Source: Flavimobilis marinus (GTDB lineage: Bacteria; Actinomycetota; Actinomycetes; Actinomycetales; Cellulomonadaceae). From it: DNA of 64,000 nt. The stretch lies in assembly GCF_900113055.1 (NCBI RefSeq), contig NZ_FONZ01000001.1, forward strand, positions 806,001 to 870,000, read 5' to 3'. Below the pieces are notes generated by a model. That model saw only the letters and a list, made by a program, of their open reading frames with translations. It was not told the origin of the DNA and did not search any database. Shown piece after piece: positions 1,852 through 20,816 of this stretch (position 1 is the stretch's first letter; each line of letters starts with the position of its first letter). The position numbers and the translations under genes are program-made.

Positions 1852-2091
1852 ATGCTGCACGACCACAGGCCTCGCGGCGGCCGACGACCGGTCACGCCGA
1901 CCTCCCGCAGCACCGCGAGCGCCTGGACCACCCCGACGGCGCACAGCGCCCAGGGGACGGGCGCGCTCGCGGGCGCAGTCCTGGACGACGACTTCGACCT
2001 CGGACGCATCCCGCTCGCGCTGATGGCCGACCTCATGAACCCCTTCGGCCCCGGGACGGAGCGCATCCTCGAGGAGGAGCGTGGCCTGTGA
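1852..2091 (+). CDS. Hypothetical small protein (79 aa)
   Basis: A 79-codon frame starts at ATG 1852 after a purine-rich AAAAGGGGGAGGGATCG, a strong ribosome site. The N-terminal half is Arg/Thr/Ser-rich and low complexity. The C-terminal 35 residues, containing DDDFDLGRIPLALMADLMNPF, show normal codon choice for this genome, with G or C in nearly every third position. The conserved-looking tail suggests a real gene, but I do not recognise a family. The frame continues upstream to 1651 with poor codon use, so the later start is preferred. Confidence 0.45.
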   Translation: MLHDHRPRGGRRPVTPTSRSTASAWTTPTAHSAQGTGALAGAVLDDDFDLGRIPLALMADLMNPFGPGTERILEEERGL

Positions 2092-2185
2092 CACACCCCG
2101 CGAGGGCTCGGGAGCGTTGAAATCTCGCCGATTTCGCGGTGTCCCGTCGGGGTGGTAATGTCTTCCATCGTTGCTCCGGCAACAC

Positions 2186-2258
<73 letters not shown>

Positions 2259-2263
2259 CAGCA

Positions 2264-2303
2264 GAAGGCCCGGTCCCAGCGGAGACGCTGAGGCCGGGCC
2301 TTC
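2264..2303 (+). terminator. Terminator after tRNA-Lys
   Basis: GAAGGCCCGG (2264-2273) pairs with CCGGGCCTTC (2294-2303). The arm sequence is nearly the same as that of the hairpin after trxA, suggesting a recurrent local terminator type. Confidence 0.7.
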
Positions 2304-2466
2304 GTCGTGTCTCCCCGTGGTCGCGGTGGACGACGAGCACCTGGACAGCCTCGGGCGAGCGACGGCGGGACGCTACGCTCGCCAGCAACCCGCTCCGACG
2401 CGGGTGGCATGGCACCACGGCGCGCCCAGTGCGCTGCGCAGCGAGACCGAGGGCAGAGGCAAGCAC

Positions 2467-2868
2467 ATGACAGCACAGCAGGGAACGGCGGGACGCGGGC
2501 CTTCGCTCGTCCTGGCAACGGTCGTCGCCGTCGGCGCATTCGTCGCGGCGATGGTCCTCTATGACGTCGTGCTCGGCATCAGCGGATACGGCGGCAACGA
2601 GTTCTGGTGGGCGCGTGCCGTCGAGGGCGTGCTGATCGGGGGCGCGGCGCTCGTGGCGTGGACCGTCGCCGCGGTGCGGCTGGGGGCCATCGTGGGTCTG
2701 GCCGTGACGACGGTCCTCCTGGCCCTCGGGCTGGCTGAACCCTCGAGTGAGCTGTGGTCCAGCGGCCAGTCACCGGTGATCTGGGCGTTGGCCGTCGTGT
2801 TCGCCGTGCGCGCTGTTGTCCCCGCGGCGCGCAGAGCCGAGACGCTCCCCGGGATGTCGGCGTCGTGA
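2467..2868 (+). CDS. Small integral membrane protein of unknown function
   Basis: A 133-residue protein with about four hydrophobic helices: LVLATVVAVGAFVAAMVLYDVV, then VEGVLIGGAALVAWTVAAV, then IVGLAVTTVLLALGL, then VIWALAVVFAVRAVV. There is a short polar N-terminus (MTAQQGTAGRG) and an Arg-rich C-terminus, so the tail is probably cytoplasmic. I do not recognise a named family. The start at ATG 2467 is chosen over the upstream frame opening at 2251, which would run through tRNA-Lys. The stop TGA overlaps the GTG of the next gene (GTGA), so the two are very likely co-translated. Confidence 0.75.
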   Translation: MTAQQGTAGRGPSLVLATVVAVGAFVAAMVLYDVVLGISGYGGNEFWWARAVEGVLIGGAALVAWTVAAVRLGAIVGLAVTTVLLALGLAEPSSELWSSGQSPVIWALAVVFAVRAVVPAARRAETLPGMSAS

Positions 2869-3677
2869 CGACAACGACGGCCAGGGCCCGCGAAGAGTTC
2901 GACAGGTTCACTCAAGACTTGGTGACGTCGGCGTCGGCGCGCGACGACGTCGTCGGCCTCGTGCTCCTCGGGTCGGGCGCGGACACCGCGCGGGTTGACG
3001 AGTGGAGCGACCACGACTTCTACCTGGTGAGCACCCCGGGCGCGCAGGAGGCGCTGCGGACGGACCTGTCGTGGCTACCGCGGTCGGTCTCGATCGTGCT
3101 CGCGGCGCGCGAGACCGAGCACGGGCTCAAGGTCGTGTACGACGACGGGCACGTGCTCGAGTTCGCCGTCGCCGACCTCGACGAGGTGCGCGGGTTCGGG
3201 ACGAACCACTGGCGCGTCGTGCTCGACCGCGGAGGAGTGGCCGAGGCGGTCGGGTCCGCGGCCCTGGTGACGCACGCGCGTCCGGGCCGGCCCGCGCGCG
3301 ACGCCGTGGGGCTCGCGGTCACCCTCGTGCTGATCGCCGCCGGACGCGCCCGTCGGGGCGAGACGCTCACCGCCCAGCGTTCGGTCGCGCAGGCGGTCGA
3401 CCTGGTGCTCGAGGCCGTCACGGCGCGCATCGCGTCCGCCGACCCAGCCGTGACGGACGTGCTCGACGCGCGGCGCAGGGCTGAGGCGGCCTATCCCGAC
3501 GTCGCCGCAGCGCTGAGCCAGGCACTCATGGCAGCGCCCGAGGAGGGCGCGCGGCGCGTGCTGGACGCCGCCGAGGGTGCGCTGGCGCGCGGGTGGGACG
3601 GGTGGCCCCACGCGGCTGTCGCTGCGGTCCGGCGCCGCCTGGGCTGGGCGAGGCCGGCCCCCTGGGCAAGAAGCTGA
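2865..3677 (+). CDS. Nucleotidyltransferase-like protein
   Basis: A 270-residue protein. Residues about 30-50 contain LLGSGADTARVDEWSDHDFYLV, which spells the pol-beta-type nucleotidyltransferase signature GS...D-x-D (here DHD), as in aminoglycoside adenylyltransferases and related kanamycin-type or toxin-antitoxin enzymes. The remainder is alpha-helical, Ala/Arg-rich and probably a helical substrate domain. The GTG start overlaps the preceding stop codon by four bases, so translation is coupled to the membrane protein. Substrate cannot be predicted; antibiotic resistance, protein AMPylation or RNA modification are all possible. Confidence 0.75.
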   Translation: MTTTTARAREEFDRFTQDLVTSASARDDVVGLVLLGSGADTARVDEWSDHDFYLVSTPGAQEALRTDLSWLPRSVSIVLAARETEHGLKVVYDDGHVLEFAVADLDEVRGFGTNHWRVVLDRGGVAEAVGSAALVTHARPGRPARDAVGLAVTLVLIAAGRARRGETLTAQRSVAQAVDLVLEAVTARIASADPAVTDVLDARRRAEAAYPDVAAALSQALMAAPEEGARRVLDAAEGALARGWDGWPHAAVAAVRRRLGWARPAPWARS

Positions 3678-4013
3678 GACGTGGGAAACAAGGAGCCGCT
3701 TCCCGAGAGTCGGGCGCTGCGTCGCGCTGGGTCAGGACTGACGCAGCTGGGACCTTGTGTCAGAAGGCTCCAACTCGTGCCGATATCACCACGGTTAGTT
3801 CGACCGAGTGTCCTTCAGTGTCAGGAGCGTGACTGACGGAGCAATAGCCGACGAGGCAGCGGGTGCGGCAAGGCTCAGTCACGCTGATCGGGCGCTCGGG
3901 GCCGCCTCACCGAGCGCTGCCATCACCTATCCGTGCAGCAGACACCCGCTGCTACGCTCCCACCAACCACGCGTTCACCGACGCGTCGTCAGTGCATCGA
4001 GTCAGGGGCCCTC
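3678..4013. other. Intergenic leader region of the secreted hydrolase
   Basis: 336 bases with clearly lower GC than the flanks and no convincing gene. It holds a hairpin, GCGCTCGG (3892-3899) with CCGAGCGC (3910-3917), and a possible -10 TACGCT at 3953-3958, which would give the next gene a leader of about 50 nt. Several short frames cross it but show poor codon choice. Confidence 0.5.
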
Positions 4014-6797
4014 ATGCGTGTACGCGGTTACTCAAAGACGGCTGTGGTTATGGCTCTCTGTCTGGCCGTCACTTCCCTCGGCGGATCGTCCGCGCACGCG
4101 GATGCGGCCGATCCCGCCACAAGCCTGTCGGCACCGACCGGTCAGTCAGAGCACGGCAACTTCGTCGTGCATGAAGACAGCTATGGCTCTACCTTCACAT
4201 GGCGCCCGCGGGAAGAACTTCCGATGGGCGGCGCCCGCCCCGAGTTCTTCCTCGATGGTCAGTTCGTGGGCGCGCCCCTGGCCAAGGGTGGGGTCCTCAC
4301 CCTGCGCGTTCCGGGGCTGCAGGGCGCCAAGGCTCGCAGTGTGAGCGCCGTCAGTGGCGGGCGGGTGCTGGACGGCAGGGCGCTGCCGTCCGCCAAGAAG
4401 CGGACCACCACGAAGGCCCCCGTGCAGCCAGCAGCGATCCTCAAGGACGACCCAGGAAAGAAGGGCAGGTACAAGACCGAGTCCTTCACCTACACGGCGA
4501 AGTCCCTCAAGGTCGCTGGCTACCCCTCGCGACTGGAGATGAAGGCACTTGTCGTTGCCCCCAAGGGTGCCAAGGGAAAGCGGCCCGTCGTGCTGTTTCT
4601 GCACGGGCGGCACGGCACGTGCTACGTCGGCGAGGAAGTCGACCTCGCGTGGCCGTGCGCGGACGGTATGAAATCTATCCCGAGCTACCGTGGCTACGCC
4701 GAGCAGCAGCGGCTGCTCGCGAGCCAGGGCTACGTGACGGTCTCGGTCTCCGCGAACGGCATCAACGCTCAGGACGCTGAGGTTGCTGACGCGGGATCAG
4801 GTGCGCGTGCGCTCGTCGTGCGTGAGCACCTCGCCCTCCTGGCCAAGTGGAACGCCGGCGTCAAGGCGACCGGCAAGGACGCACGCGTGATCAAGCGCGT
4901 CCTGTCCGGCCACATGAACCTGAAGAAGGTCATGACCGTGGGGCACAGTCGCGGAGGTGAGGGCGTCAACCGCGCCGCACTGCAGGAGAAGAAGGGCGAC
5001 CCGTTCAGAATCGTCGCGCAGGTGCTCGTGGCGCCGACGGACTTCGGCCGCCAGGTCGCTGTCGGAGTCCCCACGACCGTCCTCCTGCCATTCTGCGACG
5101 GCGACGTCTCGGACCTCCAGGGCCAGCAATACGTCGACCAGGGTGCGCGCATCGCCGCAGGCGACAACTCCCTCAAGACGTCCGTGCTCGTCATGGGCGC
5201 CAACCACAACTACTTCAACACCTACTGGACCCCGAACGCGACGGCCGCCCCGGCGAGTGACGACTGGTGGGACGCCGGCGATGCTGCTTGTGGTAGCAAA
5301 GCGAGATCGCGGCTCAAGCCCGCAGCGCAGCGAGCCGTGGGATCGACGTACATCGCCGCTGCTGCCCGGACCTTCCTCACCAGGAGCACCAGCGCTGTCA
5401 AGCTGCTTGACGGTACCGCGGTCCGGGCGGCCTCGGCCGGCCGGGCGGTCGTGCTGACCTCCGCAGTCGGAGGCAAGCGGCGTGCGGTCGTCGTGCCCTC
5501 GTCGGCTCTGAAAGTCAAGGCGAGCGTGAACGCGTCCGCCACGGTGTGCGACGGCTTCGCGCTGGACGAAGGCGTCGGAACTCCTTGCACACTGGACGGA
5601 TCCTGGGCATCCCCGCACTGGCTTCCCTCGAGCTACCAGACGACCGGCTCCCCGAGCCCCCGGGCGTTGCGATTCGCATGGAAGAAGACGGGGGGCGCCG
5701 TCACGATCTCGGCGCCGCGTGACCTCGGGTCCTATCGCCACATCGACTTGCGCGTCATCGCGGACCCCTCGGTCACTGCGGGAAGGTTCGCATTGGTGCT
5801 GCGCGACGCGTCCGGGCGCAAGGTGAAGATCAAGTCCCAGAACGATGCAGCACACCTACCCGCCGCTGGCGAGACGGCACGGCTGTGGGCGCAGACCGTC
5901 CGGTTCACGCTGCCGAAGCGCTCCCGGGTCAACATGAGCAAGATCGCGTCGATCTCCCTCGTCGGCACGAGCGCGCGCGGCAAGGTCTACGTGCTGGACG
6001 GCCACCTGTCCTCGTCTGGCCTTCGCGCCACGAAGGTGACGAGTAAGAACGTCGCGCGGTTCAACGTGCAGGATGCGGTGGTCACTCGCGACGCCCGGCA
6101 GTCCGAGCAGACCGGGTACCTCACCGTCCCGATCTCCAACGCGTTCACGAGCGCAGCACGGGTGTGGGTCGAGGTCTCCGATCTCAACGCGTTTGCTGGC
6201 TACAGCGGCAAGTACTACACCGTCCAGCCCGGGCAGCGGGAGATCAAGGTTCCCGTGGTCTTTGCCGGCGACGACATCTTCACAGATGACTCCTTCGCGG
6301 ATCAGGGCGGATACGGAGTCAGAATCGAAGCGAAGCGGAACGCGGTCGTGGACCGCGTGGAGGGTCGCCTGACCGTCCGCAACTCTGCCCCGCGCCCGAC
6401 TCTGTCAGTCGAACAGACCGATGTCGTGGCGAAGCCCGGGGGAGTCGTCCGCTGGGTGCTGTCGCTCTCCGCGCCGATGACGCAGGACTACTACGGCTTT
6501 GCGACGGCGGTTCCGCCTACGCTTCCGGGGGGCGAGCTCACGCTCGCCTCGGCGGTGCCGAGCTGGTTCGCCCAGTTTGGGCAGGGCGCTGCCAAGGCGA
6601 TGACCTTCTCTCAGGCGGGGGTGGTCGTGGGCGTGTCGGTCCCGGCCTACAGCACCACCACGACGATCGAGGTTCCGGTCCGTGACCTCGCGTACGTGGG
6701 AGACGGGCGGACGCTGGAGTTCGTCGTCGAACCCGATGGCGCCTTCGTGCCCGAGCCGATCACGCTGCGCGCCCGGATCGAACCCAAGGAGGGCTAG
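4014..6797 (+). CDS. Secreted multidomain alpha/beta hydrolase
   Basis: A 927-residue exported protein. Residues 1-30 form a Sec signal peptide (VVMALCLAVTSLGG core, AHA-D cleavage). Residues about 150-470 are an alpha/beta hydrolase: oxyanion segment LFLHGRHG near 195, nucleophile GHSRGG with Ser312, probable acid in PFCDGD (Asp362 or Asp364), and His398 in GANHNYF. After about residue 500 there is a beta-rich module (VTISAPRDLGSYRHIDLRV) resembling carbohydrate-binding or laminin-like folds, then a region around 690-800 with the rhythm of Calx-beta-like repeats and a final beta domain. ATG 4014 is chosen for AGGGG spacing and the signal peptide. GC is lower and codon use looser than in neighbours, suggesting acquisition. 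Substrate is unknown; an ester of a polymer or polysaccharide is an inference. Confidence 0.8.
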   Translation: MRVRGYSKTAVVMALCLAVTSLGGSSAHADAADPATSLSAPTGQSEHGNFVVHEDSYGSTFTWRPREELPMGGARPEFFLDGQFVGAPLAKGGVLTLRVPGLQGAKARSVSAVSGGRVLDGRALPSAKKRTTTKAPVQPAAILKDDPGKKGRYKTESFTYTAKSLKVAGYPSRLEMKALVVAPKGAKGKRPVVLFLHGRHGTCYVGEEVDLAWPCADGMKSIPSYRGYAEQQRLLASQGYVTVSVSANGINAQDAEVADAGSGARALVVREHLALLAKWNAGVKATGKDARVIKRVLSGHMNLKKVMTVGHSRGGEGVNRAALQEKKGDPFRIVAQVLVAPTDFGRQVAVGVPTTVLLPFCDGDVSDLQGQQYVDQGARIAAGDNSLKTSVLVMGANHNYFNTYWTPNATAAPASDDWWDAGDAACGSKARSRLKPAAQRAVGSTYIAAAARTFLTRSTSAVKLLDGTAVRAASAGRAVVLTSAVGGKRRAVVVPSSALKVKASVNASATVCDGFALDEGVGTPCTLDGSWASPHWLPSSYQTTGSPSPRALRFAWKKTGGAVTISAPRDLGSYRHIDLRVIADPSVTAGRFALVLRDASGRKVKIKSQNDAAHLPAAGETARLWAQTVRFTLPKRSRVNMSKIASISLVGTSARGKVYVLDGHLSSSGLRATKVTSKNVARFNVQDAVVTRDARQSEQTGYLTVPISNAFTSAARVWVEVSDLNAFAGYSGKYYTVQPGQREIKVPVVFAGDDIFTDDSFADQGGYGVRIEAKRNAVVDRVEGRLTVRNSAPRPTLSVEQTDVVAKPGGVVRWVLSLSAPMTQDYYGFATAVPPTLPGGELTLASAVPSWFAQFGQGAAKAMTFSQAGVVVGVSVPAYSTTTTIEVPVRDLAYVGDGRTLEFVVEPDGAFVPEPITLRARIEPKEG

Positions 6798-6829
6798 TCG
6801 ATGCATCTCCGAGCAGAAGGGTTCCCGCC

Positions 6830-7078
6830 TTGAGCGGCTTCACATTCTTCACCTTGTTGTTCTGGCTCCTTCCGCTGCTCTCTGTCGTGTTGATGATCGC
6901 GGCGCTCCTGAGCCTGGCGAAAGCGGACGTGAATCAACGCGAGTTCCTGGCCTGGCTTGCCATCATCGTCTTTGCGCCCGTCGTCGGGCCTGTCGTGTGG
7001 TTCTTCATGGGCCGCGGGCCGCGCGCGGCGGAGCCTGCAGCGCACGTCGATCCGATTCGGGTGCCACCGACGGCCTGA
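6830..7078 (+). CDS. Small membrane protein, phospholipase-D N-terminal-like (PLDc_N)
   Basis: An 82-residue protein with two hydrophobic helices (FTLLFWLLPLLSVVLMIAALLSLA and LAWLAIIVFAPVVGPVVWFFMGR). The second has the WFFMGR ending typical of the PLDc_N module found at the start of cardiolipin synthases and as stand-alone short proteins. The TTG start at 6830 is supported by AGAAGGG nine bases upstream; an ATG at 6801 is out of frame. It lies 32 bases after the hydrolase and shares its lower GC, so the two may have arrived together. Confidence 0.65.
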   Translation: MSGFTFFTLLFWLLPLLSVVLMIAALLSLAKADVNQREFLAWLAIIVFAPVVGPVVWFFMGRGPRAAEPAAHVDPIRVPPTA

Positions 7079-7096
7079 GCTACAGTCGCGCCCATC

Positions 7097-7834
7097 ATGA
7101 GCGAGACGCCCAGCCCTCACGGCACCTTCCGCACCGAGCCGGTGTCGTTCATCCGGCGCAGCGGCCGCCTGTCCGCGGGGCAGGAGCTCGCGCTGGAACG
7201 CTCGGGCGGGACGTACGTGGTCGACGTGCCTCGCGCGATCGCGCGCACCTCGGTGGACCCGGACTACGTCCTCGACCCCGCCGCGGTGTTCGGCCGGACC
7301 GCTGCAATCGTCGTGGAGATCGGGTCGGGCATGGGGGAGTGCGCGGTGGCGGCCGCGACCGCACGCCCCGACGTCGACCATCTCGCCCTCGAGGTGTACC
7401 TGCCGGGGATCGCCCAGGCCGTGCGCGGAGCCGAGCGCGCCGGCCTGGCCAACCTCCGCCTGCTCCAGGCCAACGCGCCCGAGGTCTTCGCGACAGCCCT
7501 CCCCGTCGCGAGCGTCGACGAGGTGTGGATCTTCTTCCCCGACCCGTGGCCCAAGGCGCGCCACCACAAGCGGCGCCTGGTGACGCCGTCGTTCGTCGAG
7601 CTCGTCGCCCGGGTGCTCAAGCCGGGCGGAGTGTGGCGCCTCGCGACCGACTGGCGCCCCTACGCCGAGCAGATGATCGAGGTGATCAGCGGCTCGGACG
7701 CGTTCGCCCCGCTCGTCCCAGGCAGCGACGGCACGGCGCCGCGCTTCGACGGCCGGGTCCTGACGACGTTCGAGGCGAAGGGTCACCGGGCGGGACGCGA
7801 GGTCACCGACCTGGCCTACGTGCGGACCCGGTGA
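7097..7834 (+). CDS. trmB: tRNA (guanine-N7)-methyltransferase
   Basis: Makes m7G46 in the variable loop of tRNAs using S-adenosylmethionine. The 245-residue protein has an N-terminal FIRRSGRLSAGQ segment, the SAM-binding EIGSGMGE motif near residue 75, LALEVYLPGI, and the family signature FFPDPWPKARHHKRRL with the catalytic and tRNA-binding residues. The C-terminal TTFEAKGHRAGREVTDLAY is also diagnostic (TKFexrGxxxGhxvxDL). TACAGT lies 10 nt before the ATG and may be its -10. The ATP-grasp gene follows within 20 bases. Confidence 0.96.
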   Translation: MSETPSPHGTFRTEPVSFIRRSGRLSAGQELALERSGGTYVVDVPRAIARTSVDPDYVLDPAAVFGRTAAIVVEIGSGMGECAVAAATARPDVDHLALEVYLPGIAQAVRGAERAGLANLRLLQANAPEVFATALPVASVDEVWIFFPDPWPKARHHKRRLVTPSFVELVARVLKPGGVWRLATDWRPYAEQMIEVISGSDAFAPLVPGSDGTAPRFDGRVLTTFEAKGHRAGREVTDLAYVRTR

Positions 7835-17958: not shown

Positions 17959-19205
17959 GGGTTCTCCTCGGTCGAGCAGGTGAGCGTGAGCTGCCAGCCG
18001 GAGCCGTCCGGTCCGTGGTCGAGCCGCAGGCCGGCGCTCGCGGCGCGCTCGGTGAGGCTCTCGAGCCCGGACCCGTGGTCGAGGCCGAGGTGGCCCTCGG
18101 GGCGCGGCGGTCCCGGGTCACGCACCACCACGCGCACCTCGTCGCCCGCGCGGGTCACCGCGAGGTCGGCGGTCGTCGCGGCGGAGTGCCGCAGCAGGTT
18201 GGTGGCGGCCTCGCGCACGAGCAGGCCGGCCAGGTGGCGGGCGTCCGGCGGCACCGCGGCGAGGCGGCCCGACACCGTCAGCGCGACGCCCGCGGCTCTG
18301 AGCACCTCGACCGCGCCCGCGACCTCCTGCTCGAAGTCCACGGCGCGGTACCCGTGGGCGATGGCGCGCGTCTGGCGCAGCGTGCCGGCTGCGGTCTCGT
18401 GGATCGCGTCGAGGATCTCGGCGACCTGGGTGGCGTCTCCCGGCTCGTCCCGGCGCAGGAGGGTGCGCGCGAGGTCCGCCTGCATCACGATGTTCTGCAG
18501 CTCGTGGCCCTGGAGGTCGTGCAGCTCGCCGGCGAAGCGCAGCCGTTCTTCGGTGCGGGCGAGCGCGACCGAGGTGCCACGGGATGCCTCGAGCGCCGCG
18601 ACGACGTCGAGCCACCAGACCTGCCCCACCTGCACGACGAGCGCGCCAGCGACGACGGCTGCCACGGACAGGCCGGACCAGTCTGGGGTCATGACGAGCG
18701 CGACGACCACGGGCGCGAGTACCGCGAGCGCGAGCGCAGCGGCGTCGCCCCGCGGGAGGCGAGGGAGCAGTCCGTCGTCGCTGCGCACCGTGCGGGCGAG
18801 CGTCGCGTCCGCGAGCGTGACGGCGTACGGGAGCGCCCACAGCCAGGCAGGGCGCCCCTCGCGCAGCCCGTAGGCGAGCAGACCGAGCCCGGCGAGCAGC
18901 ACGACGACGACGGCCACGCGGCTGGTCGCCCAGGCGCCGATCCCCGCGCCGGACCACCAGCGCGACGGGAGCAGACCGGCACGGACGACCAGCGCGAGCT
19001 GTTGGACCCAGACGGCCGCGACCGTCGCCCAGACCGCGAACGTCGCGAGGGTCGGCACCGGGTGGTCGAACGCCACAAGCAGGCCGGCGATCAGCGTGGG
19101 CGCGAGCAGCGAGACCTGGGTGTAGAGCTCGAAGGCGTGCGGGACATGGGCCGACTCGTCGCTGCCGGCCGCGTCGCCCCCTGCCACGTCGGTCACCTCG
19201 CGCAT
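17955..19205 (-). CDS. Membrane sensor histidine kinase, DesK/LiaS class
   Basis: A 416-residue kinase with about six N-terminal membrane helices (residues 25-190) and almost no extracellular loop, followed by a HisKA_3 dimerisation helix with the phosphoacceptor in GELHDLQGHELQN and an HATPase_c domain (LLVREAATNLLRHS N-box, DHGSGLESLTERAASAG G-box). The lack of an external sensor domain suggests that the membrane itself or a partner protein is sensed. GGAGGTGA lies 5 nt before ATG 19205, a very strong ribosome site. It is divergent from GTPase B, whose start is about 100 bases away, so the two share a regulatory region. Confidence 0.92.
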   Translation of the reverse strand: MREVTDVAGGDAAGSDESAHVPHAFELYTQVSLLAPTLIAGLLVAFDHPVPTLATFAVWATVAAVWVQQLALVVRAGLLPSRWWSGAGIGAWATSRVAVVVVLLAGLGLLAYGLREGRPAWLWALPYAVTLADATLARTVRSDDGLLPRLPRGDAAALALAVLAPVVVALVMTPDWSGLSVAAVVAGALVVQVGQVWWLDVVAALEASRGTSVALARTEERLRFAGELHDLQGHELQNIVMQADLARTLLRRDEPGDATQVAEILDAIHETAAGTLRQTRAIAHGYRAVDFEQEVAGAVEVLRAAGVALTVSGRLAAVPPDARHLAGLLVREAATNLLRHSAATTADLAVTRAGDEVRVVVRDPGPPRPEGHLGLDHGSGLESLTERAASAGLRLDHGPDGSGWQLTLTCSTEENP

Positions 19206-19307
19206 GCTGTCACCTCCGTCCCATCGCGGCAAGCATCCGCGCGTCGCGTTGGCGCCGCGGGTGTCGGCACGGCACGCTGGGCCCAGAGCCGAACAAGAGG
19301 GGACCTC

Positions 19308-20816
19308 ATGACCACGGACGGTGACACGCTCCGCGGGCGGGCGGGCGACCTGCTGCGCGCACTCGAGACGGCGGGCACCCGGCTCGATCGGGAGGTCGCC
19401 ACGGCGGCACGCAGTGCCGTCGGCCTCGCCCAGGAGCGCCTCGACCTGGGTGTGGACCTCACGGTCGTCGCCCTCGTCGGGGGTACCGGCTCGGGCAAGT
19501 CCTCGCTGTTCAACCGGGTCTCCGGCCTGCCCCTGGCCGAGGTCGGGCCCGAGCGCCCGACGACGTCGCAGGTGTCGGCCTGCGTGTGGGGCGAGGGGGC
19601 GGCGGCGCTCCTGGACTGGTTGGACGTGCCGCGCGAGCGCCGCACCGACCGGGTGAGCGCGCTCGACGCGGACGACGAGGAGGACCTGCGCGGGCTGGTG
19701 CTCCTCGACCTGCCCGACTACGACTCGATCGCGCGCGAGCACAAGGACGTGGTCGACCGCGTGCTGCCGCACGCCGACCTGGTCGTCTGGGTCGTCGACC
19801 CGCAGAAGTACGCCGACCACGCCCTGCACGCCGGCTACCTCGACGCCGGTGGGAGCCGCGCGACGGTGGTCCTGAACCAGATCGACACCGTCGCGCCGGA
19901 GGCTGCCGAGCGGCTGGTCGAGGACGTGCGCCGGCTCGTGGCCCCGCACGGGCTCACCGACGTGCTCGCGGTCTCGGCCGTGACGGGGCAGGGCATGGAA
20001 GAGCTTCGCACGGCGCTGGGGACTGCGGTCCGGACCCGGTCCGTCGCGGCGCGTGCGGTCGCGGAGACCCTGCACGGCGCAGCCCGGCTGCTCGGCGAGG
20101 CGCTTCCCGCCGACGCCATGTGGAGCCTGGACGCTGCTGCCGAGGATTTCCTGGACCAGGCGGCCGACCTCGTCGGGCTCGACGAGCGCGCGGCGAGCGC
20201 CGGCACGGGCGCCGACGACGGAGCCCGGGCGAGCGGGGACGCTGACCTGCCCGCGGCCGCGGTGGAGCCGCTGCGCGACCGGTGGCTGGCGCGCGTGGCC
20301 GCACCGCTCGCACCGCGCTGGCGCGGAGCGGTGGAGGAGGCCGTCGCCTCACCCGGCGACCTCGCCCGGCGGCTGTCGTCCGCGGTGAGCGGGACCAGGA
20401 TCGCGGACGGACGGGGCGGCGCAGCCCGGGCGCGCGTGGTGGCGCTGACCCTCGGTGTGCTGGCGCTCCTGGCCGTGGTGGCGTTCGTCGTGCTCGCCGT
20501 CGTCGACCAACCGCTGGGTATCCCGGTGGGGGTCGGTGCCGTCGTGCTCGTCGCCGTCGCGCTCGTGGCCGCCTGGTGGTGGCGTCGCTGCGAGAAGCAC
20601 GCGACGCTCGCGCGGGCGGACGAGTTCCGGTCCCGCGCGCGTGAGCGCCTGCGGACCGCGCTCGACGAGACCCTGGTGAGTCCGGCGCGGGAGCAGCTCG
20701 ACGAGCACCACACGACCCGCGAGCTTGCGTTGGCGGGCCTCGACGCGGAGCTGGTGCGCGCGACCCCGGACGCTACCCCCACCCCGACCGCAGCTTCCTC
20801 CACAGCCGCGGTCTGA
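19308..20816 (+). CDS. Dynamin-like GTPase B with C-terminal membrane anchor
   Basis: A 502-residue GTPase. P-loop GGTGSGKSS at residues 58-66, switch region ERPTTSQVS, G3 DLPDYDS and the characteristic VVDPQKYADHALHAGYL block, G4 LNQID. After a helical region, two membrane helices (VVALTLGVLALLAVVAFVVLAVV and VGAVVLVAVALVAAWWW) precede a basic amphipathic tail, so the protein is membrane-anchored with both termini cytoplasmic. It is homologous to GTPase D over the whole length, sharing DPQKYAD-ALHAGYL. AGAGGGGACC precedes ATG 19308. Confidence 0.83.
   Translation: MTTDGDTLRGRAGDLLRALETAGTRLDREVATAARSAVGLAQERLDLGVDLTVVALVGGTGSGKSSLFNRVSGLPLAEVGPERPTTSQVSACVWGEGAAALLDWLDVPRERRTDRVSALDADDEEDLRGLVLLDLPDYDSIAREHKDVVDRVLPHADLVVWVVDPQKYADHALHAGYLDAGGSRATVVLNQIDTVAPEAAERLVEDVRRLVAPHGLTDVLAVSAVTGQGMEELRTALGTAVRTRSVAARAVAETLHGAARLLGEALPADAMWSLDAAAEDFLDQAADLVGLDERAASAGTGADDGARASGDADLPAAAVEPLRDRWLARVAAPLAPRWRGAVEEAVASPGDLARRLSSAVSGTRIADGRGGAARARVVALTLGVLALLAVVAFVVLAVVDQPLGIPVGVGAVVLVAVALVAAWWWRRCEKHATLARADEFRSRARERLRTALDETLVSPAREQLDEHHTTRELALAGLDAELVRATPDATPTPTAASSTAAV

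Follow-up and report, generated by a model that had tools for sequence, protein, structure and literature searches.

The window analysed here is a stretch of 64,000 nucleotides from contig NZ_FONZ01000001.1 of Flavimobilis marinus, and it encodes a 927-residue, probably secreted α/β hydrolase that is homologous to the protein of PDB entry 9xg1 (Table 1). A gap of 32 bases separates the end of this gene from a second open reading frame, whose product matches the PLDc_N family (PF13396) above the cutoff, with an E-value of 8.4e-10. The initial annotation of this DNA described the larger product as a secreted α/β hydrolase with a triad formed by Ser312, Asp362 or Asp364, and His398, and the smaller one as a PLDc_N-type membrane protein with the same bias; the residues are indeed where they were said to be, a probable signal peptide can be recognized by eye, and the small gene shares the bias, as described below. 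Long homologues of the hydrolase exist, which rules out a chance open reading frame, and an artefact of a contig end is ruled out by the position of the window in the interior of a 1.08-Mb contig. Searched against Pfam and NCBIfam, the hydrolase has no model at or above the cutoff, and its own genome contains no match that would represent a second copy.

Table 1. Features of the hydrolase locus, in window coordinates, with residue numbers of the hydrolase
Feature	Position	Strand	Remarks
Segment differing from G003 (replaced or acquired block)	3660..7074	.	DNA alignments; ends approximate
Probable ribosome-binding site, AGGGG	4004..4008	+	Read from the sequence upstream of the hydrolase ATG
Hydrolase open reading frame	4014..6797	+	927 aa, probably secreted α/β hydrolase; homologue of PDB 9xg1
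Putative Sec-type signal peptide	4014..4106	+	Residues about 1-31; recognized by eye
N-terminal domain	4149..4448	+	Residues 46-145; common with 9xg1, 23/98 aligned residues identical
Catalytic α/β hydrolase domain (predicted)	4449..5417	+	Residues 146-468; 138/312 aligned residues (44%) identical to 9xg1
His200 of HGRH	4611..4613	+	His in 46/46 aligned family sequences, Glu in 9xg1
Ser312 of GHSRGG	4947..4949	+	Predicted nucleophile; invariant
Asp362-Gly-Asp364	5097..5105	+	Predicted triad acid; both Asp invariant, spacing would favour Asp364
His398 of NHN	5205..5207	+	Predicted triad base; invariant
Module 1	5421..6029	+	Residues 470-672; 9xg1 the only solved match, profile E 1.5e-28
Module 2, Calx-beta-like (weak)	6027..6398	+	Residues 672-795; profile versus 9xg1, E 1.3e-9
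Module 3	6390..6794	+	Residues 793-927; past the end of 9xg1; low-confidence β-rich model
PLDc_N membrane protein	6830..7078	+	82 aa; PF13396; putative TTG start

A phmmer search with the hydrolase identified one solved relative, 9xg1_A, which carries the depositors' name "Protein-asparaginase" and aligns with residues 46-777 at an E-value of 2e-75; a profile of eight sequences matches the same structure with an E-value of 3.9e-189. From residue 46 to about residue 780 the order of domains is the same as in 9xg1, a chain of 793 amino acids, and so are the Ser-Asp-His motifs, so that the combination of domains, which had been considered unfamiliar, is for the most part that of a solved protein. 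The correspondence includes the first two of the three C-terminal modules. In module 1, 45 of 200 aligned residues are identical to 9xg1, and no Pfam family matches above chance. Module 2 is less similar (17 of 109 aligned residues identical), and its profile also gives weak matches to chains of Na/Ca exchangers (E-values of 0.016-0.041), the part matched there probably being the Calx-beta domain; the copy in the window has no Pfam match by itself. The 9xg1 chain stops before the last 135-residue module of the window protein. Module 3, aligned with 11 relatives from the same branch that were chosen for having it, has no convincing match among solved chains or in Pfam and no known relative outside the hydrolase family, and a comparison of modules 2 and 3 does not point to a duplication (probability 4%). 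Structure prediction was run for the whole protein with one relative and for module 3 alone, and the models are of low confidence (mean pLDDT 34.5 and 47.1, respectively), the latter being β-rich. The earlier description of the C-terminal modules as β-rich thus gains little from the models, apart from the match of the first two modules to the solved protein.

The conservation of the putative active site is consistent with an enzyme that functions as a serine hydrolase. Ser312, Asp362, Asp364 and His398 are identical in all 46 sequences of the family alignment, which includes the window protein, as well as in 9xg1, and the same is true of five cysteines (Cys203, Cys215, Cys361, Cys512 and Cys525). 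Judging from the fold, the equivalent Ser, Asp and His of 9xg1 would be catalytic. The active-site loop, in contrast, is not identical: it reads HGRH in 42 of the 46 family sequences, including that from the window, and HGNH in the other four, compared with HGRE in 9xg1, which thus has Glu where the window protein has His200. Furthermore, in the family tree 9xg1 falls in a branch separate from that of the window protein. Given this placement and the replacement of His200, the substrate of the window protein may differ from that of 9xg1, and the His/Glu difference could represent a specificity switch.

On the basis of the homology with 9xg1, we take deamidation of protein asparagine to be the most likely activity. 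The protein would be exported by the Sec route and then be free in the medium, and Ser312, His398 and Asp364 (or Asp362) would make up the catalytic set. The serine would attack the carbonyl carbon to produce an acyl-enzyme near the HGRH loop, from which water would free the acid; the side-chain amide of asparagine in extracellular proteins would in this way be removed, yielding ammonia and aspartate residues. The β modules may keep the enzyme attached to large substrates or stabilize it. The strongest competing view of the function is that of an extracellular ester hydrolase (a cutinase, polyester hydrolase or lipase-like enzyme) of the same fold, with the asparaginase activity of 9xg1 as a side branch, a reading that we regard as possible but less likely. 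It draws on weak matches of the profile to Lipase 1, a cutinase and a PET hydrolase (E-values from 1.6e-4 to 1.8e-3), on the PETase family PF12740, which is detected in three of eight members (best E-value 5.8e-7) and in three of eight longer relatives, one of them (L050) above the cutoff (29.6 versus 28 bits), and on the Glu in place of His200 that sets 9xg1 apart. However, these matches span about 120-200 residues around the nucleophile, compared with some 730 residues and the main motifs for 9xg1, and the window protein has no match to PF12740 at E-values up to 1. The PET hydrolase-like and cutinase enzymes (PF12740; 8ais, 8ait, 9vzr) resemble it in fold and around the nucleophile, weakly and through its relatives, whereas the window protein is much larger and multidomain and lacks a PF12740 match above the cutoff. 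The α/β hydrolase fold also supports peptidase and transferase reactions, and certain relatives, whose ends are of SLH, Ig-like or LAxTG type, resemble surface proteins. Even so, we consider it improbable that the window protein is not an asparagine side-chain amidase but a dedicated peptidase or transferase, acting for example on cell-wall peptides, since it has no match to a Pfam or NCBIfam family of this kind at E-values up to 1. Deamidation of protein asparagine therefore is retained here as the preferred function, with the caveat that a search of one literature collection lists no paper describing protein-asparaginase.

The initial annotation regarded the hydrolase as an orphan and proposed that the distribution of its homologues be examined. 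The search shows that it is not an orphan: apart from 9xg1, relatives are present in the genus, family, order and phylum samples. With the single protein as query (E-values up to 0.001), relatives were found in five of six genomes of the genus; with the profile (E-values up to 1e-10, some hits being partial), they were found in 20 of 221 genomes of the family-level sample, 36 of 396 of the order sample and 22 of 396 of the phylum sample, counts that include the genome of origin and come from overlapping samples. A scan of contigs for short peptide patterns taken from a single protein added one relative, from an uncultured Naasia. The hydrolase accordingly looks like a new and slightly extended representative of an enzyme family that is fairly widespread but lacks a name, and thus like a recognizable kind of protein, not an unknown kind of system; no curated full-length profile was found for it. 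Several relatives carry Ig-like, S-layer (SLH) or sortase-type (LAxTG-type) ends and, on that account, are probably surface proteins. No anchor or surface-type end was found in the window hydrolase, which would probably be released, not tethered. The HGRH majority, for which no Pfam or NCBIfam model above the cutoff was obtained with the window protein as query, might constitute a widespread class of secreted enzymes acting on extracellular proteins, either as asparagine deamidases or as relatives of these with another target, and exchanged between bacteria at variable sites, some being tethered to the surface by S-layer or sortase signals; we offer this generalization tentatively. Four relatives (L062, L066, L067, L079) have in-frame stop codons inside the match and are perhaps decaying copies or draft errors.

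The region between 3.68 and 7.08 kb had been described as an island that differs from both flanks in base composition and codon choice, and only the second difference is distinctive. Plain G+C content ranges from 0.655 to 0.683 in 1-kb windows between 4.0 and 7.0 kb, which is not unique, since it is as low at 21.5-22.5 kb (0.668) and at 59.5-60.5 kb (0.658). Codon choice was compared among 47 genes, a set established by hand from 48 open reading frames by dropping four shorter than 125 aa, trimming starts and adding three genes. The PLDc_N gene and the hydrolase gene are the two most deviant, ranking lowest and second lowest both in GC3 (0.829 and 0.838) and in codon adaptation (0.44 and 0.57). 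Stretches of 927 codons were sampled at random from the remaining 45 genes 2000 times; their mean GC3 was 0.927, and in no case did the value fall to that of the hydrolase gene. Nor is the bias accounted for by amino-acid composition, from which a GC3 of 0.927 would likewise be expected. Among genes of at least 400 codons, the next most deviant is located at 18015-20816 (933 codons; codon adaptation 0.648, GC3 0.871).

A comparison with the nearest of five congeners, G003, whose TrmB is 92% identical (70-78% in the other four), places the limits of the differing segment close to those of the island, at about 3650-3660 on the left and about 7074 on the right. The DNA of G003 aligns with the window at 83% identity over 2494-3650 on the left flank and at 92.7% on the right flank; high identity stops where the preceding gene ends and restarts at about 7074, and a second alignment, of lower identity, extends back to 6887, inside the PLDc_N gene. 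Around the segment, the order of trx, bcp, NT and the seven genes compared between TrmB and PAP2 (both included) is kept, with products 88-99% identical in the two species (88-97% for NT, TrmB and an ATP-grasp protein); on the left, the product of the open reading frame at 1651-2091 (two pieces, 55 and 86%) and a membrane protein (61%) are less alike. The stretch between the flanks measures about 0.6 kb in G003 and contains two PLDc_N genes; the hydrolase gene is absent both from this site and from the rest of that genome (99% complete). The PLDc_N protein of the window is only 51-57% identical to the two G003 proteins, whose genes have a GC3 of 0.93-0.94; given this divergence, the contrast in GC3 and the shared break points, the hydrolase and PLDc_N genes seem to have changed together. 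As a sign of vertical inheritance, the five congeners were examined for an ortholog that shares both this locus and its composition, and none of them has the hydrolase gene here. In G001, G002, G004 and G005 the stretch before TrmB reads, by eye, as pntAB, and in the window genome and G003 it holds the membrane protein, a nucleotidyltransferase-like gene and PLDc_N genes. From these comparisons, the slot before TrmB (2186-7834 in the window; L022-L025; after tRNA-Lys where seen) appears to be a variable site. No mobility gene was recognized among the open reading frames of the block, which were judged by reading, and there is no direct repeat at its two ends; an imperfect inverted pair, 3631-3650 and 7107-7126 (20 nt, 80% complementary), straddles the block, similar chance-level pairs being present in the same list.

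The other four congeners encode the hydrolase at a different locus. In G001, G002, G004 and G005 the gene adjoins that of a 222-aa protein, on whose far side are rnhA and mqo. A gene for a secreted-looking zinc-peptidase-like protein (L009:5917-8061, with homologues in L010, L012 and L013) is located on the other side of the hydrolase in G002, G004 and G005 and between rnhA and the 222-aa gene in G001; its motif HExGHNFGLGH was recognized by eye in G005 and G001, with homologous genes in G002 and G004, and the two proteins may act together. The window genome and G003 have the mqo, rnhA and 222-aa genes together, and neither the hydrolase nor the peptidase-like gene is found within the 19 kb examined. 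The congeneric hydrolases have the full-length architecture of the window protein at 42-49% identity but differ in locus and in GC3 (0.90-0.92 versus 0.838). Since the family was thus probably ancestral in the genus at the mqo-rnhA locus (four of six genomes), it is not new to the lineage even if the window copy is.

This history makes relocation the main rival on origin: the gene would have shifted to this site from the mqo-rnhA locus, evolved fast and been lost in G003, all inside the lineage and without any foreign gain. The identities of the window hydrolase to the congeneric copies (49, 48, 43 and 42%) track the relatedness of the species as measured by TrmB (76, 78, 70 and 70%), a quick tree places it beside G002 and G005 with a support of 69, and tree tests do not reject a clade of all five genus genes (p-AU 0.246) or one of the window gene with G002 and G005 (p-AU 0.382). 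Against relocation stand the lower GC3 than in the four congeneric copies, the adjacent PLDc_N gene, which shares the bias and encodes a protein comparably distant from either G003 copy, and a more careful tree in which the window hydrolase weakly groups (79/89) with that of G030, from another genus. The trees as such neither demonstrate ordinary descent nor rule it out. Of the horizontal gain that had been proposed from composition, a gain, or at least a segment replacement, is favored by the codon bias, the site without the gene in G003 and the lack of the gene at this locus in all five congeners, but the gene tree does not demonstrate a transfer. Relocation therefore keeps some plausibility, although we consider it the less probable course, and the account that fits best is a recent replacement, private to this species, of about 3.66-7.07 kb, with the hydrolase gene probably newly placed in the window genome; that the site difference reflects a gain here and not a loss in G003 is what we infer from the whole of the evidence. 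No plasmid or phage origin can be named: no relative turned up when viral contigs were searched with the family profile, or among phage records, and the 16 relatives on plasmid records (15 from Streptomyces or Streptantibioticus and one from Cupriavidus) are all less than 60% identical.

The block at 3.66-7.07 kb, some 3.4 kb of foreign-looking DNA in a high-GC bacterium, would thus have been replaced recently, in this species alone among the six genomes of the genus, bringing in the hydrolase together with the PLDc_N protein. That such a replacement occurred and that it brought in a secreted serine hydrolase most likely deamidating protein asparagine is a joint proposal, covering origin and substrate at once, to which we assign about an even chance. 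In terms of genome biology the locus is unremarkable, a variable slot at which a gene was gained or to which it moved. Few enzymes are known to deamidate the asparagine of intact proteins, and such enzymes are useful in food processing; the presence of the family in 5.6-9.1% of the genomes across the three samples, partial hits counted, would make it a ready source of enzymes. The His/Glu difference near the active site provides a testable clue to specificity, and this unexplained switch and the unnamed last module (residues 793-927) are the points that deserve a specialist's attention.

The G030 homologue (L011:2990-6843) is located between trx and tRNA-Leu/bcp; trx and tRNA-Leu/bcp also occur in the window, 2-3 kb upstream of the hydrolase, a resemblance that may be due to chance. 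In G002, mqo is found twice with equal score, at 2051-3532 and 2865470-2866951 of contig C1, near both ends of this 2.89-Mb contig, and the duplicate probably reflects a contig-end overlap or a repeat.
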